Part shown: piece by piece, positions 6,217 to 28,235 of the stretch
Layout of the letters: every line of letters begins with the position of its first letter
Numbering within the stretch: position 1 is the stretch's first letter
Source: Micromonospora chokoriensis
Lineage (GTDB): Bacteria > Actinomycetota > Actinomycetes > Mycobacteriales > Micromonosporaceae
Assembly (NCBI RefSeq): GCF_000718555.1
Contig: NZ_JOAN01000009.1
Coordinates: 136,783-200,782 of the forward strand
Length of the DNA stretch: 64,000 nucleotides
Reading direction: 5' to 3'
Notes under the pieces: model-generated
The model's database searches: none
What the model was told of the DNA's origin: nothing
What the model saw: only the letters and a program-made list of their open reading frames with translations
Translations under genes and position numbers: made by a program

Positions 6217-6647
6217 GGCGCTGCCTTCCCCTCACGCGTTCAGCGGTTCGGCGGCATACCCGCTGCGGTGGCGGCTCACGCTCGCACGCTGCTGCTACTT
6301 TTCCTCCACGCGAGGTCGTCTCATGTCCGGCTTACCCGAACCTTAAGTTTGCCTTTGGTGGTGAACGGCGCCGAAAGTGCCGCGTACGGCGGCGCGGTCC
6401 GATCCGTGCTCGGCTGCCGCGCGTACGCCCTGCTGAGGCGGTCTGCGTGCGGACCCGCCCCACCGCCCGCCGCCGATGTGGCGCTGAGCGCTGTCTTAAG
6501 TGCCCTCACGAGTGCGGTTCCGGCCGCCTTGAAGGGCCCTGGGGCCTTGGTTACCTTGCCGTAGCAACCCCCTCAGGCAAAGTCGCCGCACCTGCCGCAC
6601 CTGCCCGGTAGCAGCTTCCGGCGCTCATCAGAAATCGGGATTGGTAC
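6217..6647. promoter_or_regulatory. 431-base non-coding leader upstream of the DUF1800 operon
   Basis: No convincing gene lies here. The stretch separates DUF3040 (minus) from the DUF1800 operon (plus) and must hold both promoters. A locally AT-richer patch (ACCTTAAGTTTGCC, about 6340-6354) and a run GGCCTTGGTTACCTTGCC (about 6543-6560) are candidate promoter or leader elements, but neither matches a consensus I can name. The start codon of the DUF1800 gene has only a weak ribosome-binding site. Confidence 0.4.
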
Positions 6648-8747
6648 ATGGCCGACCAGAATGTGCCACCACGTCGACCGCGGGACGACCGCGGTTGGGA
6701 CGGACACCAGCACCACAGCGCTGACGGTTACGGCGACCCCCACCCGCCCGCGCCCTACGGCTACGACTCGCCCCACCCCCACCAGGGCGGCTACGCCGCG
6801 CAGGCCGACCCGCGTGAGCAGTACGGCGACGGGTACGCGCACGCCGGGCAGCCCGCACCCGCCCCGCGCGGCCCGCAGTGGGTCGGCCCGGAGGGCCTGG
6901 GCCGCCCGGCCCCGGCGCGACCGGCCGGCACCGGACTGCCCACCCTCGACGATGACGATGAGCCGGGTCGCAAGGTCGGCCGACGCAAGGCGATGGTGGC
7001 CCTCGGCGGCACCGCCGCTGTCGTCGCCGGTGGCGCGGCGCTCGCCATGACCCCGCAGTTCCGTGGCCTCTTCGGCGACGAGGCGGCGGCTGGCGACGCG
7101 ACCGGCAGCACGGTGACCGACGGCACCGCGGCGCGGCCCAGCGGCCAGCAGCCCAGCACGGTGCGGACGTACACCGAGCAGAACGAGAGCTACATGGGCT
7201 CCCGGGCCGGTGAGGCGCTGAAGAAGAACGCGCCGGCCGGTGGACGGACCTTCTCCGGCCCGGCCGCGGCCGCGGCGGCGACCCAGGTGACCGTGAAGAC
7301 GGTGCTGGCCAAGGACCCGATCCTGCACCTGGCCCGGCGCACCACCTTCGGCGTGACGCCCGCCGTGGTCGCCGACATCAAGCGTGAGGGCATCGACGGC
7401 TGGATCCGGGCTCAGCTGGACCCGGGCAAGTTGGAGCCGAGCAAGGGCGAGCTGAAGCTCGCCGAGCTGCCCACCCAGAAACTCTCCGTGCAGCAGCTGC
7501 GCGACCAGCGGGACAAGCTCAACGAGCAGGACGCCCACCCGGAGCGGGAGATGGTCGACGCCACCATCGCCCGGCAGATCTGGTCCAAGCGCCAGCTGTT
7601 CGAGGTGATGGTCGACTTCTGGAACGACTTCCTGCACGTCGCGGCGGACTTCGACGGCGGCGAGGTGTACCGCAGCTCGTTCGACCAGGACGTCGTACGC
7701 AAGCACGCGCTGGGCAGCTACCCGGAGATGTTGGTCGCCGCGAACAAGCACCCCGCGCTGCTGATCTACCTGAACCAGAAGGACTCCCGCAAGGACGCGA
7801 TCAACGAGAACCTCGCCCGGGAGAACCTCGAGCTCTACTCGGTCGGTGTCGACGGCGGTTACAAGGAGCCGGACGTCCGGCAGGCCGCCATGTTGCAGAC
7901 CGGCCGCGGCGTCGACGACAAGGGCAAGTACGTCTTCCGCCCCGAGCAGCACTACGTCGGCAAGGTGAAGATCCTCGGCTTCAGCCACGCGAACAACTCG
8001 GCCGACCCGAAAAAGGCCGAAGCGGCGATCGACGCGTACATCACCTACATCGCGCTGCACCCGTCGACCGCGAAGTACGTGGCGCAGAGCCTGGCCACCC
8101 GGTTCGTCTCGGACACCCCGCCGAAGTCCCTGGTGGACCGGCTGGCCAAGTCGTACACCACGAACAACGGCATGATCAAGCCGGTCCTGATGACGCTCTT
8201 CTGCTCCTCGGAGTTCTGGGCCGGGGTGGGCCAGAAGGTGCGCCGGCCGATGGAGTACCTGATCGCCACGTACCGCACCCTGGGCGTCGCACCGGACGCG
8301 TCGCCGAAGCACAACAACGGCGACAGCAAGCGCACCCCGTACGCCCGGGGGTTGCGCCAGATCCACGACAAGCTGCGCGAGTTGGGCCACTACCCGATGG
8401 GTCAGCCCACCCCGGACGGCTACCCGGACGTCTACATCGCCTGGACCTCCGCCGGCACCATGGTCAACGGCTGGAACGAGGCGGGCGAGATCCTCGCCGG
8501 CTACCGCACCACCTTCACGTACACGGCGCCGGAGAAGCTGGTCGCCAAGGCGCCGGCGACGGCCGGGGCGTACGTGGACGCTCTCTCCCTGCGGCTGGTG
8601 GGCCAGAAGTTGAGCACGCGGGAGAAGAACCTCATTCTCGGCGTGGCCGGTGTGACGGCGACCGCCAAGGTCGACGCCACGTTCAACGGGGCCATCACCG
8701 CCGTCGCGCGGGCGATCCTCGCTTCCCCCCAGCACCACCTCCGGTGA
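6648..8747 (+). CDS. DUF1800 domain protein, probably exported
   Basis: A 699-residue protein. Residues 1-110 are Pro/His/Gly/Tyr-rich and disordered. GRRKAMVALGG at 111-121 followed by a hydrophobic stretch to about 135 looks like a twin-arginine or anchor signal set behind an unusually long cytoplasmic extension. The rest matches DUF1800 (LARRTTFGVTPAVVADI; RQIWSKRQLFEVMVDFWNDF; NLARENLELYSVGVDGGY; TLFCSSEFW). DUF1800 proteins nearly always sit next to DUF1501 proteins; the biochemical role is unknown. The stop overlaps the next start (GTGA). Co-operon with a ferric-reductase-like protein, an FMN carrier and ApbE suggests a cell-envelope redox function; that is inference. Confidence 0.9.
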   Translation: MADQNVPPRRPRDDRGWDGHQHHSADGYGDPHPPAPYGYDSPHPHQGGYAAQADPREQYGDGYAHAGQPAPAPRGPQWVGPEGLGRPAPARPAGTGLPTLDDDDEPGRKVGRRKAMVALGGTAAVVAGGAALAMTPQFRGLFGDEAAAGDATGSTVTDGTAARPSGQQPSTVRTYTEQNESYMGSRAGEALKKNAPAGGRTFSGPAAAAAATQVTVKTVLAKDPILHLARRTTFGVTPAVVADIKREGIDGWIRAQLDPGKLEPSKGELKLAELPTQKLSVQQLRDQRDKLNEQDAHPEREMVDATIARQIWSKRQLFEVMVDFWNDFLHVAADFDGGEVYRSSFDQDVVRKHALGSYPEMLVAANKHPALLIYLNQKDSRKDAINENLARENLELYSVGVDGGYKEPDVRQAAMLQTGRGVDDKGKYVFRPEQHYVGKVKILGFSHANNSADPKKAEAAIDAYITYIALHPSTAKYVAQSLATRFVSDTPPKSLVDRLAKSYTTNNGMIKPVLMTLFCSSEFWAGVGQKVRRPMEYLIATYRTLGVAPDASPKHNNGDSKRTPYARGLRQIHDKLRELGHYPMGQPTPDGYPDVYIAWTSAGTMVNGWNEAGEILAGYRTTFTYTAPEKLVAKAPATAGAYVDALSLRLVGQKLSTREKNLILGVAGVTATAKVDATFNGAITAVARAILASPQHHLR

Positions 8748-10138
8748 GGCACCCGATGGAGAAGACTGTGTACAACTCTTTCCCCCTGCACCCCGAATGC
8801 CCCGACGTGCGGCGGCTGGCCGACAACCCGGCCGAGGCGTTGCTGCGCGCCGAGGCGGACATCGTCGCCGCCGAGAACGCCGCCGAGTTCGACCGCTACC
8901 GCACCCTGGAGAACCTGGAGGAGGCCCAGCAGGACGGTCGGGGCGTCACCCGACGGACCTTCGTCGCCGGTGCCGCGGCCACCGCCACCGCGCTGGCCAC
9001 CGCCCAGTTCGTCACCACGTCGGCGTCGTTCGCGGCGACCAAGACCGGCACCCTGATCCACGTCTTCCTCTACGGCGGGCTGGACGGGCTGAGCCTGGTC
9101 GCACCGGACAACGACCCGGTGCTCGCCAAGGCCCGCCCCGACCTGCTGCTCGGTAACGACTCGCTGGCCCTGGGCCGCGGCTTCAAACTGACCAGCGCCT
9201 TCAAGCCGCTGGAGAAGTGGCTCACGGCCGGCCAGTTGGGCTTCATCCCGGCGGTCTCCGACGAGCGGCTGTCGCGCAGCCACTTCCAGGCCGCCGACGC
9301 CTGCAACCTGGGCGGGCTGCCGAACGAGACCGGTGGCCGGGGCTGGCTCGACGGGCTCGTCGACAACCTGGGCAAGGGCACCGCGTTCCGCAGCGTCGGC
9401 GTCGGCAGCACGCTGCCCCGCTCGCTGGTCGGCAACAACGGCGCGATCTCGCTGAACAACGTCGGGTCGCTGCGGCTCAACGGTGACGAGCGGTTCCGCG
9501 CCGCCACCGAGAAGGCCATCAAGGGGCTCTTCACCGGGATCAACCACCCGGTCGAGGAGGCCGTGCAGGAGGGCATGGGCGCGCTGGCCACCGCCCAGCG
9601 GCTCGCCGCCAAGCCGTACCAGCCCGTCGAGGGCGTCAAGTACGAGGGCGTCGGCAACGCGTTCCAGCAACTCGCCCAGCTGATCAAGGGCGGCGCCAAC
9701 GTCCGGGTCGCCACCGTCGGCATGGGTGGCTACGACACCCACGAGAACCAGGGCACCCGCGAGGGCGGTCAGCTGCACCGCCGGCTCAACGAGCTGGCCA
9801 GCGCGATGGCCGCCTTCTTCACCGACCTCGGCCCGCAGGCCGCCGATGTGACGATCATGGTGTCCAGCGAGTTCGGCCGCCGGGTCGGCTCCAACGGCGG
9901 CGGCACCGACCACGGGCACGGCGGGGTCGTCACCCTGCTCTCCGGCAAGAAGCTGGCCGGCTCGCTGCTCGGCACCTGGAACGGCCTGGACAAGCTGGAC
10001 TCCGGTGACGTGCCGGAGTACAACAACATGTTCAACGTCTACGGCGCGGTGGCGCAGGGCCGGTTCGGGCTCACCAACGCGGAGGTCGACAAGGTCTTCC
10101 CCCGCCAGAAGTACGCCCCGATGAAGCTGTACGCGTGA
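8744..10138 (+). CDS. DUF1501 domain protein with Tat signal
   Basis: A 464-residue protein. A twin-arginine motif TRRTFVAG at residues 69-76, a hydrophobic Ala/Thr-rich region and a likely AxA cleavage site (ASFAA, near 95-98) mark Tat export, implying folding with a cofactor in the cytoplasm. The body matches DUF1501 (LIHVFLYGGLDGLSLVAP; MVSSEFGRRVGSNGGGTDHGHGG), which belongs to the alkaline-phosphatase/sulfatase-like fold; the H-x-H in DHGHGG is a plausible metal site. GTG 8744 overlaps the upstream stop; ATG 8756 is an alternative start. The stop overlaps the next gene by GTGA, so the first three genes form a translationally coupled block. Confidence 0.92.
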   Translation: MRHPMEKTVYNSFPLHPECPDVRRLADNPAEALLRAEADIVAAENAAEFDRYRTLENLEEAQQDGRGVTRRTFVAGAAATATALATAQFVTTSASFAATKTGTLIHVFLYGGLDGLSLVAPDNDPVLAKARPDLLLGNDSLALGRGFKLTSAFKPLEKWLTAGQLGFIPAVSDERLSRSHFQAADACNLGGLPNETGGRGWLDGLVDNLGKGTAFRSVGVGSTLPRSLVGNNGAISLNNVGSLRLNGDERFRAATEKAIKGLFTGINHPVEEAVQEGMGALATAQRLAAKPYQPVEGVKYEGVGNAFQQLAQLIKGGANVRVATVGMGGYDTHENQGTREGGQLHRRLNELASAMAAFFTDLGPQAADVTIMVSSEFGRRVGSNGGGTDHGHGGVVTLLSGKKLAGSLLGTWNGLDKLDSGDVPEYNNMFNVYGAVAQGRFGLTNAEVDKVFPRQKYAPMKLYA

Positions 10139-11553
10139 CGCATCCGCACACCCACGCCGCCGGCCGTCGTACCGGGACCTCGTCCCGGCACGGCGGCCGG
10201 TCGGCTGCACCCGTACCCCCGCAGATCCCGGCCCGGCGCGGGCCCGGCGGCCGACGGCTACTGGGCGTGCTGCTCCTGGTTGGCCTGCTCGCCAGTGTGC
10301 TGCCGTGGTGGCTGGGCACCCCTGCCGGTTCGCTGCGCAGCACCGCCGCCACCGTCACGGCGGCGGGCCGGATCACCGGTCTGATCGCCGGCTACCTGCT
10401 GCTGGTGCAGGTGCTCATGATGAGCCGGCTGGCGGTGCTGGAACGGTGGATCGGCGGCGAGCACCTGGGTCGCTGGCACCGCGACATCGGGGCCACCCTG
10501 CTGGTCACCGTGCTGGCGCACATGTCGCTGATCCTCATCGGCTACGCCGACCTGCGGAACCAGTCGATCCTCGCCGAGGTCGGCACGCTGCTCGGCGACT
10601 ACGAGGACATGGTCTCGGCGTTCGTCGCCACCGGCATCATGGTGCTGGTCGGGTTCAGCAGCGTCCGGGCGATCCGACGGGCGTTGCCCTACGAGCTGTG
10701 GCACCTGCTGCACCTGTCCAGCTACCTGATCCTGCTGCTCGGCTTCGGCCACCAGTTCACCCACGGCGCGCAGCTGTACAAGGCCGGTCCGGTGCGTACC
10801 GGCTGGATCGCGCTCTACCTGCTGGTGGTCGCCGCGCTGCTCTGGGGCCGCGTGATCGCGCCGCTGGCGTTCAACCTGCGCTACCGGCTGCGGGTCGCCG
10901 ACGTGGTCGCCGAGAGCCCGGACACCATCTCCATCTACCTCACCGGCGAACGGCTCGGCCGGCTGGCGATGCTCGGCGGCCAACACTTCCGCTGGCGGTT
11001 CCTCACCCGGGGCTGCTGGTGGCAGTCGCACCCATTCTCCGTCTCCGCCGCCGCGAACGGCCGTTGGCTGCGGATCACCGTCAAGGTGGTCGGCACCCAC
11101 ACCGCGGACCTGCGCGACCTGGAGCCGGGCACCCGGGTCTGGGCGGAGGGCCCGTCGGGCACCTTCACCGCCGCGCACCGGCTCCGCGAGCGGGCGCTGC
11201 TGATCGCCGGTGGCAGCGGCATCACACCGATCCGGGCGATGCTGGAGGAGCTGCCGCCGGGCGCCGCGCTGATCTACCGGGCCCGCACCCCCGCCGACGT
11301 CCTGCTCAACCGCGAGCTGGACTGGCTGGCCCAGGAGCGCGACACCTCGGTCTGGTACGTCATCGGCTCCCGCGACGACCCCGGCCCCCGCCAACTGATG
11401 AGCCCGGACGGGTTGCGTCAACTGGTGCCCGACGTGGCCCGGCGCGACGTCTACCTGTGCGGGCCACCCGGTTTGGTGGAACAGTCGGTGCGTGCGCTGC
11501 GGCGCGCCGGCGTGCCCCGACGGCAGATCCACCTGGCCACGTTCGAGCTGTAG
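10135..11553 (+). CDS. Ferric-reductase-like transmembrane protein with FAD/NAD(P) oxidoreductase domain
   Basis: A 472-residue membrane flavoprotein. After a basic N-terminus come about six membrane segments (residues 40-245) with heme-ligand-type histidines in WHRDIGATLLVTVLAHMSL and LLHLSSYLILLLGFGHQFTHG. The C-terminal half is a ferredoxin-reductase module: flavin-binding GGQHFRWRF and HPFSVSAA, nucleotide-binding GGSGITPIRAML, and the terminal VYLCGPPGLVEQSV block. Such proteins move electrons from cytoplasmic NAD(P)H via FAD and heme to the outside. GTG 10135 overlaps the DUF1501 stop. The downstream FMN-binding protein is the obvious external electron acceptor. Confidence 0.92.
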   Translation: MTHPHTHAAGRRTGTSSRHGGRSAAPVPPQIPARRGPGGRRLLGVLLLVGLLASVLPWWLGTPAGSLRSTAATVTAAGRITGLIAGYLLLVQVLMMSRLAVLERWIGGEHLGRWHRDIGATLLVTVLAHMSLILIGYADLRNQSILAEVGTLLGDYEDMVSAFVATGIMVLVGFSSVRAIRRALPYELWHLLHLSSYLILLLGFGHQFTHGAQLYKAGPVRTGWIALYLLVVAALLWGRVIAPLAFNLRYRLRVADVVAESPDTISIYLTGERLGRLAMLGGQHFRWRFLTRGCWWQSHPFSVSAAANGRWLRITVKVVGTHTADLRDLEPGTRVWAEGPSGTFTAAHRLRERALLIAGGSGITPIRAMLEELPPGAALIYRARTPADVLLNRELDWLAQERDTSVWYVIGSRDDPGPRQLMSPDGLRQLVPDVARRDVYLCGPPGLVEQSVRALRRAGVPRRQIHLATFEL

Positions 11554-11565
11554 GAAGGGCATTTC

Positions 11566-12150
11566 ATGCGTCGCGCGTTCCTCGCGATCACCGGCCTGGC
11601 CGCCAGCACCACCGCGTTGGTGGTGCTCAAGGGCTCGCCGGGCGCCACCCCGGTCGCCCAGAACGTGCCGACCGCCCAGCCGGTCAACCCCACCCCGCTG
11701 GGGGTCGACCCGAGCGCCGACCCGGCCGCCGGCCCACCGACGCCGTCGGTCGCCCCCACGGCGCCGACGTCGCCCAAGCCCGGCAAGACCACCACCCGCC
11801 CGTCGGGCACCAAGACGACCACGAAGGCCCCCAGCGCACCCCGGACCACCACCAAGGCGCCACAGTCGACCAACCGCCGGGTGACCGGCAACGGCTTCGA
11901 GAACGAGTACGGGTACGTGCAGGTGCAGATCGTCGTCTCGGGTAACCGGATCGTCGAGGCCGTCGCGCTGTCGCTGCCCAGCGGGGGTGAGTCCGACATC
12001 CACAGCGGCGACGTCCGCAACCGCTACGACGGCAGCGGCGGCGAGGTGGTGCAGAAGCAGAACGCGAACCTCAACACCGTCTCCGGGGCCACCGAGACCA
12101 GCAACTCCTACAAGCAGTCGCTGCGCTCCGCCATCGAGCAGGCGTTCTGA
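11566..12150 (+). CDS. Membrane-anchored FMN-binding domain protein (covalent flavin carrier)
   Basis: A 194-residue protein. The N-terminus MRRAFLAITGLAASTTALVVL is a signal/anchor without a lipobox Cys. Residues 30-105 are a Pro/Thr/Lys-rich linker. The C-terminal ~85 residues are an FMN-binding domain with SGAT at 173-176, the sequence in which ApbE attaches FMN to the last Thr through phosphoester linkage. The usual Asp three residues before the Ser is Asn here (NTVSGAT). The gene starts 12 bases after the ferric-reductase-like gene and ApbE starts one base after its stop. It should shuttle electrons outside the membrane. Confidence 0.9.
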   Translation: MRRAFLAITGLAASTTALVVLKGSPGATPVAQNVPTAQPVNPTPLGVDPSADPAAGPPTPSVAPTAPTSPKPGKTTTRPSGTKTTTKAPSAPRTTTKAPQSTNRRVTGNGFENEYGYVQVQIVVSGNRIVEAVALSLPSGGESDIHSGDVRNRYDGSGGEVVQKQNANLNTVSGATETSNSYKQSLRSAIEQAF

Positions 12151-12151
12151 C

Positions 12152-12922
12152 GTGCGGGCCACGCTGACCCGACCCGGGCTGTGCCGGGTCGAACAGATCA
12201 TGGGTACGGCGATCACCCTGGACCTCGCCGACGACCTGCCCCCGGCGACCCTGCGTGAGCTGGCCGATGAGGTCTTCGCCTGGATGCACGAGGTGGACGC
12301 GCGGTTCAGCACGTACCAGCCGGACAGCGAGGTGTGCCGCTTCGACCGGGGCGAGGTGCTGCTCTCCGAGGCGTCCGCGGACCTGCGGTTCGTGCTGGAG
12401 ACCTGCGCCGACCTGTGGGGGGCCACCGACGGGTTCTTCGACGCGTACGCCACCGGTCGACTCGACCCGTCCGGCTTCGTCAAGGGCTGGGCGGCTCAGG
12501 TCGCCTCGGACCGCCTCGTCGCCGCCGGTGCCGTCAACCACTGTGTGAACGCCGGCGGCGACGTACGGGTGCGGGGGCTGTCGCCGTCCGGGGAGCCGTG
12601 GCGCATCGGCATCCGGCACCCGTGGGACGCGATGGCGGCCTGCCTGGTGCTGACCGGGACCGATCTGGCCGTGGCCACGTCCGGCGTCTACGAGCGGGGC
12701 CGGCACGTGCTGGACCCGCGCCGGGGCACGCCGGCCAGTGGGCTGCGCTCGGTGACCGTGGTCGGCACCGACCTCGGGGTGGCCGACGCGTACGCCACCG
12801 CCGCCCTGGCCATGGGCACTCCCGGCCTGGGCTGGCTGGCCCGCCTGGACGACCACACCCACGCGGCGATAACGGACAACGCCCGTCAGCACCACTCCGT
12901 CGACCTCCCGCTGACCGACTAG
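12152..12922 (+). CDS. apbE: FAD:protein FMN transferase (ApbE family)
   Basis: A 256-residue ApbE-type flavin transferase that splits FAD and links FMN to a Thr/Ser of the partner FMN-binding domain with Mg2+. It opens with EQIMGTAITLDL, then FSTYQPDSEVCRF, DPSGFVKGWAAQ, VNAGGDVRVRG, HVLDPRRG and the metal-site ADAYATAALAMG. It is shorter than the ~330-residue Gram-negative enzymes and has no signal peptide, as expected for compact actinobacterial forms. GTG 12152 lies directly after the FMN-carrier stop. Its target is almost certainly the preceding gene's product. Confidence 0.93.
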   Translation: MRATLTRPGLCRVEQIMGTAITLDLADDLPPATLRELADEVFAWMHEVDARFSTYQPDSEVCRFDRGEVLLSEASADLRFVLETCADLWGATDGFFDAYATGRLDPSGFVKGWAAQVASDRLVAAGAVNHCVNAGGDVRVRGLSPSGEPWRIGIRHPWDAMAACLVLTGTDLAVATSGVYERGRHVLDPRRGTPASGLRSVTVVGTDLGVADAYATAALAMGTPGLGWLARLDDHTHAAITDNARQHHSVDLPLTD

Positions 12923-23590: not shown

Positions 23591-24016
<426 letters not shown>

Positions 24017-24157
24017 CCCACCAGGTCAGCTATCCTTCACATGGTGGCTGACCTGCTGTTTCTTCGGGCGCTGCTGGTTGTCGTCGGTCATCCTTGGTCG
24101 TCGTTTGACGGCCCAGACGGCCCGAGGGCGGCCCGAACTCCACTCTGATCCACGCCG

Positions 24158-25645
24158 ATGTCCCCGCCTACTCGCCCCCGGGCCAAGCAATCCTGTAGAC
24201 ACGCTGCTGATACTGGTGGGGTGAGATTCCCTCGACCGGGCAGCAAGCGCAAGAAGCGGCCGTCGCGCGCTCCAAGCGCGTACGTCACTGGGATCGTTAG
24301 GGGTGAAACTTCTTCGCTTCATGCCGAGAAGTGCCCGATCCCCAAAACGCATAACCGTATGCGAGATTGTCACGACCAATGGCACGCACTGACCCGCGAG
24401 TACCACCATCCGCAGCACTTCCGTCGCGAGCTGAATAGTCTCATACAGAGCCTCCGAAATGTGACTTTCATTCTTCAGGCCGAGAAGTCTGGGATTGAGA
24501 ATTTCGACGCATGGTATGAGCCTTGGCGGGAACGAATGCGCGGAAACCCGGTTATGCGTTGGATTGTGGACTCGCGTAACCGTGTCGTGAAGCAGGGAGA
24601 CTTGGATGCCAAGTCTGTTGCGAAGGCTTCACTCATCGCTGCCTACTGGTCAGGAGATCCGCCCGAGGGTTTCAACCGTGCTGCCGGTCCTGGCTCCGAT
24701 GAGCAAATTGAGGTATCGGTCGATATGCCGCCTTCGGCGTCAACGAAGGAGCAAGTGCAGGACCTGCGGAAGATTCCTGATTTCTTCGTCCGTGAAGGTT
24801 ACATCGAACTAACTCGGAGATGGGTAGACAGCGCACTCCCGGATCGAGAGGTGGCTGATGCTTGCGCCGAAGCCTTCGGCTTTATGTCTGTTATGCTGGA
24901 TGACCTCCATCAGGCGTTGGGAATTGAGTCCGGGACGGCTTTGGCGCACCCAGGCGGCCATGTAGTTGTAGATGACCTCCCGAATGGTCGTCTACCCTGT
25001 ATGGGCCCGATGGACTACGCCGTGCATCGGCTTAAGTTGTCAAACGGAGCAACGGATGTCGGCGGTACCCGCTATGCCTTCGCGTCCAGTGAGGAAGATT
25101 ACCAGCGGTCGGCAAAGAGATACGGCATCCAAGTCCCTGAGCCTCAGACTTGGGACTCGGTTACGGGTCTTGCGGACTGGTGCATGAGCAATGCTCGCGC
25201 CATCCTTAAGAAGGATCGTTGGCATGGATGGTACGTAATGCTTTATAAGGGTAGCCAGCTCGTCAATATTGAAGCCCTGGAAGCGCGGGATCGTCCTGAC
25301 AAGATTGTGATGATGCGTGAGCTCGCGGCAACGATCGAGCGGAGCGGCATTGACGGCATCATCGAGATCGGAGACGCCTGGTTCGGCAAGATCGTCCGTG
25401 ACGATCAGGGCTTCGTGATTGCGCCGGCGCTGCTGCCGGATCGCATGGAGAGCCTTACTGTTGTCGCGGAGGACGCCTACGGAAACTATAAGAATCTGGT
25501 CTCGCCGTATACGCGAAAAGGTCAGAGAATTGAATTCTCGGACGAACCGATCGACATGAGTGAAACTTCGTTCGCAAACAATCTTCAGCCGATCCGCGAT
25601 GCGTGGCGGCGTATGGGGTTCACGTCTACCGTGCGCCAACCCTAG
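24158..25645 (+). CDS. Unrecognised protein in a lower-GC accessory region
   Basis: An open frame of up to 495 residues. Starts at 24158 (ATG), 24221 (GTG) or 24359 (ATG) are possible; the region after 24359 (CHDQWHALTREYHHPQHFRRELNSL) looks most protein-like, so the true product may be ~428 residues. It contains MRWIVDSRNRVVKQGDLDAKS, a block I associate with uncharacterised actinobacterial proteins, and no signal peptide or membrane segment. One 60-base row within it is 50% GC, against about 70% in neighbouring genes, which suggests recent acquisition. A hairpin follows the stop. The function is unknown. Confidence 0.7.
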   Translation: MSPPTRPRAKQSCRHAADTGGVRFPRPGSKRKKRPSRAPSAYVTGIVRGETSSLHAEKCPIPKTHNRMRDCHDQWHALTREYHHPQHFRRELNSLIQSLRNVTFILQAEKSGIENFDAWYEPWRERMRGNPVMRWIVDSRNRVVKQGDLDAKSVAKASLIAAYWSGDPPEGFNRAAGPGSDEQIEVSVDMPPSASTKEQVQDLRKIPDFFVREGYIELTRRWVDSALPDREVADACAEAFGFMSVMLDDLHQALGIESGTALAHPGGHVVVDDLPNGRLPCMGPMDYAVHRLKLSNGATDVGGTRYAFASSEEDYQRSAKRYGIQVPEPQTWDSVTGLADWCMSNARAILKKDRWHGWYVMLYKGSQLVNIEALEARDRPDKIVMMRELAATIERSGIDGIIEIGDAWFGKIVRDDQGFVIAPALLPDRMESLTVVAEDAYGNYKNLVSPYTRKGQRIEFSDEPIDMSETSFANNLQPIRDAWRRMGFTSTVRQP

Positions 25646-25693
25646 AATGAGAGTGGCGGGTGACTGTCGGTGAGACCGTGTGCGGACAGCAGT

Positions 25694-25717
25694 AAATGCT
25701 AGGGCTGGGCAGCATTT
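25694..25717 (+). terminator. Hairpin after the accessory gene
   Basis: AAATGCT (25694-25700) pairs perfectly with AGCATTT (25711-25717) around a 10-base loop, 49 bases past the stop of the preceding gene and before the convergent minus-strand gene. It is AT-rich and lacks a clear T tract, so terminator function is tentative. Confidence 0.45.
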
Positions 25718-25801
25718 GACAGCTTCTACGGGTATTTAGCGACCCTTGAAGGGCCCTTGGGCTCAGACTGCTTCCCGGTACGGTTCCTGCAAGTGAAAGC
25801 C

Positions 25802-26425
25802 TCAGTTCATTCCCTGTTCCCACATTTCGTATAGGTGAGTCTCGTGGACATCTAGCATGGTGAGCACTCCACCATGAACCATATCGAACGCCTCGCGGAA
25901 TGCAGACGCAAGACGAACAACGTCGACCGCCGTTGCGTCCGTCTTGAGGTGGTTGGCGTATCGAAACGCCTCCCCGCTCGGATCGAGTTGGTGCAAGCGC
26001 ATGAGCCAACGCATTGTCTCAGGCGGAAGGCTGCCCAACTGGAGCTGGTTGAGAAGCCCGGCGAGCTGCTCTGCTAGAGGACCTAGTCGGTGCCGCTGCT
26101 TGCTCTTGAGATGTGCCTCCAACTCAGAAGGCGTTGGGACACCATGATCTCGTCTAGCCATCTGCAGGCATTCCACTGCCTGACGGATCGCCTGCTTCAA
26201 GGCCAGTTCGATGCCATGGCGGTAGTTATAGATCATGGGTAGCAGCAGGGGATCGTTCGGATGGGGGCCGCTCTGCCACGCGGCCAGGACAGCATCCCCG
26301 GCGTCGGCGAAACCGCAGGCTAGACCCCTATCCCCGTCGTAGTAGCCCACCCATGCAATGTCCTGCCAATCGGACGGTTCTGGAAGAGAGCTGAGTAGGT
26401 CGCCCATGCGAGGATGATGCAGCAT
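25802..26425 (-). CDS. Uncharacterised helical protein
   Basis: A 207-residue protein with no signal peptide or membrane segment. It contains PLLLPMIYNYRHGIELALKQAIRQAVECL (in overlapping parts), a long helix with a conserved-looking Y-x-Y-R-H-G-I-E-L-x-L-K, and a predominantly helical C-terminal half. This pattern recalls HEPN-like or AbiV-type helical bundles but no R-x(4-6)-H catalytic motif can be assigned with confidence. Base composition is lower in GC than flanking core genes. Its neighbours are also unrecognised. The function is unknown. Confidence 0.65.
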   Translation of the reverse strand: MLHHPRMGDLLSSLPEPSDWQDIAWVGYYDGDRGLACGFADAGDAVLAAWQSGPHPNDPLLLPMIYNYRHGIELALKQAIRQAVECLQMARRDHGVPTPSELEAHLKSKQRHRLGPLAEQLAGLLNQLQLGSLPPETMRWLMRLHQLDPSGEAFRYANHLKTDATAVDVVRLASAFREAFDMVHGGVLTMLDVHETHLYEMWEQGMN

Positions 26426-27220
26426 TAGGTGAGAGTTCGCCTGCCTTGACGTCCGACCGGCGCGTCACCCATCCGAACCTGGTCAAGCAAACCTTGACGC
26501 GATGCATGGCCCCTTGTTAAAGCGACGCGTTATCTGGTATTTGTCCATGCATGGCGAGTAGGTGGGGGCAGTGCACTGCCGCGACGGCATCTGGCTCGCG
26601 GTGTCCCAATGGCGCGGCGAGCGAATCAAGGCTCTGCCACATCCATGATCCTGCCCTGCCATGCGGCGCAATCGTTGGTCCCGGCACTCGGCGATGAACT
26701 GTCGCCACGGGTGGCTGCCAGTGCCTTCACCAGCAGGAGCCTGAGCAGGACACGCTGTTCTAGCAACGATGGAAATCGCGTCGGCGGGTAGCTGCGCGAT
26801 GAGGCCGGGGCGGGGATGTGGCGCGCGCACCCCGGGCAGGCCCTGGCCTGCCGGCGACGCCGGCCGGAGGGGCGGCCCGGCACACTCCGCGCCGCATCCG
26901 GCCCCGGCCGCGGTGACTCGCGCTTTGGCGTGTCCTGCGACGGCCGCCGCGCCTCGGCCGGCTGCCGGCCCACGACCCCATCAGTAAAGGGTCTGTCGTT
27001 CTGCGGCGGCCCTCGGGGCTTCCCGCCTCCGTGCCAGCCGCTGGGCGTCAGGTGTGACGGCCGCAGAGCGCCAGCGGTAGCGGCCGGCGCACGCCCAGGC
27101 GGCGGCGCGTTTGGCCCGTTCAGGGCCGCCTTCAATGCGTACAGAAACTTTGAACGCAGCAGCCGGCCGGCAGCCGACTCCGGTTCTCGAGCATGGCCTG
27201 ACCGCCCTTGCCCCCTGATA
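26426..27220. other. 795-base non-coding stretch in the accessory region
   Basis: No gene is supported here. The left part contains two perfect palindromes, CCATGCATGG (26545-26554) and GGCAGTGCACTGCC (26567-26580). From about 26800 to 27200 the sequence turns very GC-rich with no codon bias in any frame. It is the divergent region between two unrelated accessory genes and must hold both promoters. Confidence 0.5.
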
Positions 27221-27886
27221 ATGAGCGCTGTGGATGATCTGTACGCGGTCCGCTTCAGCCTGCCCGGAGGGGTGCCCCTCGACGAGTTGGGCAACGCCGA
27301 AGGTCCTGGCGAAGACGAAGATGAAGAGCCGGACGTCAAGACGACTTTTGCTCATTTCGGCCTCGCGTACTACCAAGCATGCGTCCTTGAGCACGAGATC
27401 GTGAACTTACTATCCGTGGCCAGGATCGTCGAGGCTCGACGAGACGCCGAGCGGCTCTTGTCGGATCCCTGGGATGAGAAGTTCAAGAAGACGATGGGGG
27501 CACTCATCAAGCAACTTGAGCCGAACCTAGGGGCTGATCCCGAACTTGCTGCCGATCTAACGGAAGCACTGCGGCAGCGCAACTACCTTGCACACACCTT
27601 CTGGCGTGAAAGGGCAGACGACTTTGCTGACGATTCAGGCCGGGCGCAAATGATCGCTTTCCTCATCGAAGCTCGCAGGACCTTCGAGAGCGTGAACGAG
27701 CGGTTGACGTTGGCACTTGGAACGCCCCTTCTACGAGAGTGGGGTGTGACGCCAGCGGCGGTGGATGCCTGGTATCGGAACACCATAGAGCGGGTGGTGC
27801 GTGGCGAGTTACGCGTGCCACGGGACACCATCGACTCGGTGCGCCGGTCGCTGCTGGACCGGATCGCGCCGCCGAGCTCCGACTAG
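27221..27886 (+). CDS. HEPN-like helical protein
   Basis: A 221-residue protein from ATG 27221; upstream in-frame sequence is GC-rich low-complexity and is excluded. Residues 22-45 are acidic. The helical core has LAYYQACVLEHEIVNLL (49-65) and LTEALRQRNYLAHTFWRERADDF, containing R-N-Y-L-A-H (120-125), an R-x4-H motif typical of HEPN ribonucleases and their relatives. HEPN proteins are common in toxin-antitoxin and defence systems. No partner nucleotidyltransferase gene is adjacent. Activity is inferred only from this motif. Confidence 0.65.
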   Translation: MSAVDDLYAVRFSLPGGVPLDELGNAEGPGEDEDEEPDVKTTFAHFGLAYYQACVLEHEIVNLLSVARIVEARRDAERLLSDPWDEKFKKTMGALIKQLEPNLGADPELAADLTEALRQRNYLAHTFWRERADDFADDSGRAQMIAFLIEARRTFESVNERLTLALGTPLLREWGVTPAAVDAWYRNTIERVVRGELRVPRDTIDSVRRSLLDRIAPPSSD

Positions 27887-28235
27887 TGGAGTGGGACTGT
27901 GGGTGATCCGTTCCGTCAGTACGCTGGCGGTATGTTCGCCCACGTCGATACCGCCCGGGAGATCGCCGGCTCAAGTTGGAGCCTGCTCTGCCTCGCCGTT
28001 GGATTCACGTCCAAGTGGTAGCCGCTGAGGCGCGACAAGTCGCCGCGGCTGTTCCCACCGAGGATGAGGACGTGTTCGTAGCTGCATGACGTGGGCTACA
28101 GCCCGGATCTCGTCAACACCGGCTTCCACTCCCTGGGTGGCGCCCGTTTGCCTAAGTGGGCCGTGATTAGTGGCTATCGATATTCGAACTTGGGTGATTC
28201 CTCGGTCAGGCGCTCCTCTTCGCGCAGGACATCAG
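27887..28235. other. 349-base region with no supported gene
   Basis: A 29-codon frame (27931-28020, starting MFAHVDTAREIAGSSWSLL) could be a gene fragment but has no support. A string ATTCGAAC near 28181 recalls a tRNA T-loop, but no acceptor or anticodon stems surround it. The region probably marks the edge of the accessory block. Confidence 0.4.

Follow-up and report, generated by a model that had tools for sequence, protein, structure and literature searches.

Among the described systems, the MsrQ-like flavinylation systems are closest to one half of the locus analysed here. They comprise 1797 clusters, mostly from Actinobacteria, where they are widely conserved, and they combine a PF01794 heme protein that often has a C-terminal PF00175 domain with an FMN-binding carrier and ApbE (Meheust 2021, PMC8238504, accessible text). 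DUF1800 and DUF1501 genes in front of such systems are not mentioned in that text. According to the available part of a 2025 review, most ApbEs are secreted, and one cytosolic ApbE with a cytosolic target is named (PMC12052999). For the other half of the locus, the DUF1800-DUF1501 tandem module has been described, which has the same two domains in the same order and a Tat motif on DUF1501 (e.g., PMC5122149, in part). In the same source the tandem lies beside bacterial chitin synthase genes, and a predicted operon is cited. The accessible portions of the literature found on DUF1800 or DUF1501 give a function for neither. All parts of the operon described below are of known kinds, whereas their combination appears to be new as far as the literature searched is concerned: no published description of an operon of DUF1800/DUF1501 and flavinylation genes was found, with the cluster tables in the supplements of Meheust 2021 and most subscription journals lying outside the scope of the search.

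The window, i.e., the whole stretch of 64,000 nt that was analysed, contains five genes on the + strand at positions 6648-12922, separated by no more than 12 nt. An earlier note had claimed a five-gene operon of DUF1800, DUF1501 and a flavin chain, and the open reading frames, the strand and the Pfam families all confirmed it. The features are as follows:

6342-6349 and 6495-6502, + strand: two CTTAAGT boxes, a possible operator, upstream of the operon and 153 nt apart
6648-8747, + strand: DUF1800 protein, 699 aa, with a long N-terminal stretch, the RR motif GRRKAMV (residues 111-117) and the domain at residues 227-696 (Pfam PF08811, 2e-111)
8744-10138, + strand: DUF1501 protein, 464 aa (460 aa from ATG 8756), Pfam PF07394 (3.4e-20), Tat motif TRRTFV at 8948-8965
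10135-11553, + strand: MsrQ/NOX-like membrane flavocytochrome (the reductase), 472 aa, with Ferric_reduct PF01794 (3.8e-13), NAD_binding_1 PF00175 (2.5e-10) and FAD_binding_8 PF08022 (2.4e-5)
11566-12150, + strand: FMN_bind carrier, 194 aa, with an N-terminal RR, a low-complexity linker and the SGAT flavinylation motif at 12082-12093 (residues 173-176)
12152-12922, + strand: ApbE (FAD:protein FMN transferase), 256 aa, Pfam PF02424 (1.5e-44), NAGGD at 12548-12562, without an N-terminal export signal

The five-gene unit is bounded, because the upstream neighbour, a DUF3040 gene on the - strand, is divergent, and the downstream neighbour, a Prim-Pol gene on the - strand, is convergent. The 4-base overlaps that had also been claimed were borne out for one junction and depend on the start codon for the other. 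The overlap between DUF1501 and the reductase (GTG 10135) is the firmer one, as the next in-frame ATG or GTG lies 128 nt past the stop of DUF1501, and 22 of 29 linked loci, i.e., loci that contain the DUF pair together with the flavin genes, have a 4-nt overlap at this junction. In the case of DUF1800 and DUF1501, GTG 8744 results in an overlap of 4 nt, and ATG 8756 results in a gap of 8 nt. The most likely start of ApbE is GTG 12152. A simple scan revealed no sigma-70-type promoter at the operon, and the simple scan for terminator-like sites revealed one site, on the other strand, compared with a mean of 2.1 in shuffled sequence.

Three matches to CTTAAGTK were found in the 64-kb window, while 0.19 were expected. 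Both upstream boxes were kept in all 15 aligned upstream regions of the genus (one box reads CTTAAAT in two of them), and longer forms of the two boxes each have one exact occurrence in the genome. The box pair is possibly a dedicated operator of the operon. A convincing IdeR- or SigR-like box was not detected upstream of the operon, and the best IdeR match had 6/19 mismatches. Elsewhere in the window, at positions 24001-28000, the GC content is 0.61, compared with about 0.68-0.70 in the adjoining 4-kb steps.

The distribution of the genes was analyzed in 37 Micromonospora genomes, including that of the window, with orthologue identities of at least 74% for the reductase and at least 84% for DUF1501. 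Both proteins were found in 27 genomes, neither of them in nine, the reductase only in one (G030), and DUF1501 only in none. The fused-type DUF1800 was present in the same 27 genomes, and in all 27 the genes for DUF1501 and the reductase were adjacent by coordinates. A fused-type DUF1800/DUF1501 pair without the reductase was not present in any of the 37 genomes. The naive hypergeometric value for the co-occurrence of reductase and DUF1501 was 8e-8, a value that ignores common descent. The flanking SWIM and Prim-Pol genes were 604-2273 nt apart in eight of the nine genomes without the block, and in the ninth (G001) they were on different contigs. In contrast, G000 and G002 have 7.2 kb between these genes, and G030, where only the trio of reductase, carrier and ApbE is present, has 4.0 kb. 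The spacing with and without the block shows that the five-gene block was gained or lost as a unit at one site. The earlier note had named a chance adjacency confined to this lineage as what would refute its claim. It was ruled out by the genus profile, the empty sites and the conserved order, and several genera share the five genes as a conserved unit.

The wider family sample comprised 150 genomes from 44 genera of the Micromonosporaceae, and loci were fetched for a selection of them. A reductase homologue was detected at E 1e-20, paralogues included, in at least 110 genomes, and DUF1800 was detected in at least 104. Among the matches listed, 23 genomes had the two genes on the same strand and no more than about 1.5 kb apart. 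The complete five-gene order was identified in 22 loci, including that of the window, and the genera with this order are g1, g221 (the Micromonospora pisi group), g229 (Asanoa), g226 and g248. In two further loci (L024 and L107) everything except a carrier was recognised, L065 ends at the contig end, and L075 (g249) contains four genes, with no ApbE found. Decaying copies were also seen, i.e., L072 (g213, Plantactinospora), in which DUF1800 and reductase are frame-broken and ApbE is absent, and L102, in which DUF1800 is frame-broken. In L103 (G486) a C-terminal remnant of DUF1501 (8866-9192) is followed by an intact trio.

The trio without the DUF pair is found in L101 (G030) and is common in other genera of the family, with 26 loci classed as "alone"; of these, L111 is in fact a linked locus that repeats L061. 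In the slot of the DUF pair, the unlinked trios had no other partner apart from doubtful ORFs. The linked rows require four state changes in the reductase tree (66 rows), where the unlinked L063, L064 and L101 are nested among them; in the DUF1501 tree (94 rows) two changes are needed. Because of these nested rows, the linkage would most simply be explained by one gain, followed by later losses of the DUF pair. In the stretches fetched for a second reductase lineage of the family, with about 40% identity (L087-L091, L093 and L095), neither ApbE nor DUF1800 nor DUF1501 was matched.

Judged by its domains, the trio fits a known kind, namely an MsrQ-like flavinylation system, and it also has a carrier with the [S/T]GA[S/T] motif next to apbE. 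Four histidines of the reductase, the heme ligands H115, H129, H193 and H206 (spaced 14 and 13), were invariant in 66 of 66 homologues. The membrane protein among the PDB matches of the reductase was 8qt6 (SpNOX), with an E value of 2.5e-10, across residues 163-456 only. It has the four-histidine heme pattern and the FAD and NAD(P) domains in common with bacterial NOX and ferric reductases (8qt6), and differs from them by a carrier that appears to be dedicated and flavinylated. The Pfam match of the carrier to FMN_bind (PF04205, 7e-5) had 23.8 bits, just above the cut-off of 22 bits, and its FMN domain matched PDB entry 8p2a (9.1e-12), a domain of SaFMN3 of Streptomyces azureus. The four histidines and the flavinylation motif fit the route from NAD(P)H via FAD and heme to FMN that had been proposed in the earlier note.

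Carriers of the other loci were found by their flavinylation motif, and RR starts were counted by eye, leaving out L111 and reading three rows in another frame. An RR pair before a hydrophobic stretch was present at the start of all 51 readable carriers, linked and unlinked alike. ApbE matched PDB entry 6nxi (1.8e-20). The distance from the carrier stop to the ApbE domain was at most 32 residues, with a median of 7, in the 45 loci with normal gene order, and a hydrophobic stretch ahead of the ApbE domain was found in none of the 36 measurable loci. The missing room for a signal on ApbE, together with the RR-type carrier, suggests that the carrier is flavinylated in the cytosol and then exported in a folded state. 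The ApbE of the window differs in this respect from the MsrQ-like systems as described, and the trios of the Micromonosporaceae may generally have their carrier flavinylated before export. An ApbE without room for an export signal lies beside an RR-type carrier in linked and in unlinked trios (L018-L133).

Our best reading, which is tentative and to which we give slightly less than an even chance, is that the DUF pair is an exported metalloenzyme with its own dedicated flavin electron feed. The cytosolic ApbE would attach FMN to the carrier, and we infer that carrier, DUF1501 and DUF1800 would leave the cell via twin-arginine signals or anchors. The flavocytochrome would then transfer electrons from cytosolic NAD(P)H to FAD, via two b-hemes across the membrane, and to the tethered FMN, which would pass them on to the DUF1800/DUF1501 pair. 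The pair would probably be an extracytoplasmic metalloenzyme, composed of an alkaline phosphatase superfold and a helical partner, and its substrate could perhaps be a glycan. That the five genes form one unit is much better supported than the electron transfer to the DUF pair. The outward direction of the flow is likewise a matter of interpretation. A reverse flow, in which the pair oxidises an extracellular substrate and electrons move inward through FMN and heme, would run counter to NOX and ferric reductases, where the NAD(P)H/FAD domain joined to the heme core donates the electrons. We regard such a flow as very improbable, although the direction is reversible in principle (Meheust 2021, PMC8238504, accessible text).

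The structural model indicates that DUF1501, one component of the proposed electron-fed metalloenzyme, has the fold of the alkaline phosphatase superfamily (phosphatase/sulfatase), an assignment that is new here. Foldseek TM-scores against structures of this superfamily were low (0.3-0.4), and a weak Pfam Sulfatase match was found in 9 of 68 DUF1501 members. At one strand end the superfamily (PafA 5tj3, NPP 7mw8, sulfatases) has an Asp-His, whereas DUF1501 apparently has SEFGR. The conserved residues of DUF1501 are D114, S179-H180, D331/H333, E376 and D389-H390, and this set of D, S, H, D, H, E, D and H is a candidate two-metal site with a nucleophile. The Tat motif and the invariant Asp and His residues agree with the earlier proposal of a Tat-type DUF1501 with metal-ready residues. 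In addition, Cys187 was present in 25 of 25 linked and in 10 of 16 near unlinked sequences. Both the Asp/His set and the distribution of the cysteine would fit a role of the chain in maintenance, i.e., that it maintains the reduced state of a metal or cysteine in the exported pair, or shields the pair from oxidation, without a role in turnover. This would also account for the pair working elsewhere without a dedicated chain. However, near unlinked pairs contain the sole conserved core cysteine as well, and a redox-active metal of the pair is hypothetical, and we consider maintenance improbable.

For DUF1800, the second component of the proposed enzyme, the RR motif was found in the linked loci listed, except for the frame-broken L072. 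The AF2 model had a pLDDT of 89.3, and no PDB match was found for it. Comparison of DUF1800 with PSD1 by hhalign gave a probability of 85.5 and an E value of 5.7e-6, with 58 columns only, and weak Pfam matches to PSD2 and PSD1 were found in 12 and 3 of 73 DUF1800 proteins, respectively. By this alignment DUF1800 appears to share a subdomain with planctomycete PSD1, which is also new here. In 25 of 30 loci of PVC bacteria, the PSD1 gene immediately precedes DUF1501, and CXXCH was present in the PSD1 of 21 of the 30. The PSCyt/PSD1-DUF1501 pairs of planctomycetes and relatives (PMC5615132, in part, and our 30 loci) therefore have in common with the operon that DUF1501 is directly downstream of a protein sharing the DUF1800 subdomain, and that an extracytoplasmic electron carrier is tied in. 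That carrier is a heme c inside the partner protein, in contrast to the separate, putatively covalent FMN protein of the Micromonosporaceae. CXXCH was found in none of 99 actinobacterial and 79 cross-phylum DUF1800 proteins, and in none of 97 actinobacterial and 79 cross-phylum DUF1501 proteins. Eight positions in DUF1501 and four in DUF1800 were specific for linked pairs, and none of them is obviously redox. The earlier claim that DUF1800 and DUF1501 are terminal redox partners was thus not supported by a heme-c motif in the proteins examined or by a linked-specific redox residue.

DUF1501 adjoined DUF1800 in all 51 actinobacterial DUF1800 loci outside the family (order and phylum samples), and no reductase or ApbE match was found in the flanks fetched for them. 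The same was true for the surroundings of two further DUF1800 loci of the window genome and of 14 more family loci (L117-L130). The latter include fused-type pairs of Dactylosporangium- and Phytohabitans-like genera, in which DUF1501 is 65 and 69% identical and the trio is missing. In 79 cross-phylum DUF1800 loci (of 80 named), an all-ORF search over up to 8 kb recognised DUF1800 in 77 and matched none of the three trio genes; some of the loci are short, and the flavin-gene profiles were built from Micromonosporaceae, so that distant flavin genes may escape. In total, DUF pairs without the trio were present in 67 other actinobacterial and 79 cross-phylum loci. The tandem with DUF1800 first was found in the window locus, and a simple ORF rule identified it in 116 of 146 other loci. 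DUF1800/DUF1501 is thus a separate, widespread two-gene module. It has no recurrent partner elsewhere, as no Pfam family occurred more than twice among the 66 neighbours analysed upstream and the 75 of 76 analysed downstream (FMN_red occurred twice, among the 66 upstream), whereas the pair of the Micromonosporaceae is joined in an operon with the flavin chain. A general link of DUF1800/DUF1501 to flavin genes, for which the earlier note had suggested a survey, was not seen, and linkage was confined to Micromonosporaceae among the samples examined. A cytochrome b gene upstream of the pair in Vibrio maritimus was not counted as a partner, as a transposase-like ORF (judged by eye) lies between them, and DUF1800-DUF1501 fusions suspected in L142 and L159 were rejected, because Pfam finds DUF1501 alone. 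The loci examined included four plasmid hits, one of which lacks annotation.

As trio and pair each occur apart elsewhere, they could also be two modules in one operon that catalyze separate reactions under the same condition, the trio as a general extracellular reductase (e.g., of iron) and the pair as a hydrolytic envelope enzyme. The hydrolase superfold of DUF1501 and the lack of a redox residue specific for linked pairs would fit this explanation, and the iron transporter VIT1 is found in some MsrQ-like clusters (PMC8238504, accessible text). Gain and loss as a block, the overlap that 22 of 29 linked loci retain, the lack of a convincing IdeR box upstream (6/19 mismatches at best) and the PVC parallel with heme c argue against it, and we regard it as possible, but rather unlikely.

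For the preferred reading, i.e., a pair that is fed with electrons, we counted the genus profile, in which no fused-type pair lacks the reductase, the conserved gene order, the gain and loss of the block, the kept overlaps, the invariant heme histidines, the carrier with SGAT and RR, the Tat motif and the superfold of DUF1501, and the heme parallel of PSD1-DUF1501 in PVC bacteria. Counted against it were the single origin in one family, the trio without the pair (also in G030 and G486), the pairs without the trio, the lack of CXXCH and of a linked-specific redox residue, and a DUF1501 fold that is known for hydrolysis. A broader proposal would be that DUF1501 and a DUF1800/PSD1-type partner form an unrecognised class of electron-fed extracytoplasmic metalloenzymes, which probably act on glycans. 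Their feeds would be interchangeable, i.e., heme c of the partner in PVC bacteria, an NADPH-heme-covalent-FMN chain in Micromonosporaceae, with a carrier flavinylated in the cytosol and exported folded, and a shared donor elsewhere. On balance, this generalisation is doubtful.

DUF1800 and DUF1501 are widespread exported proteins, and in culturable actinomycetes the operon unites them with an electron chain that is both complete and nameable. Because the operon joins the pair to this chain, the question of its function becomes a direct test, namely whether the reduced carrier feeds the pair. If this is true, similar reasoning would apply to the PSCyt/PSD1-DUF1501 expansions of planctomycetes, and the MsrQ-like flavinylation systems, few of which have an assigned acceptor, would gain a client.

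DUF1800 and PI-PLC are both named as enriched up-regulated domains in the available part of a study on coccolithophores (PMC7563939). On a Sphingomonas plasmid (L136, 6256-10340), a PI-PLC-like gene and a TonB receptor gene were found upstream of DUF1800-DUF1501.
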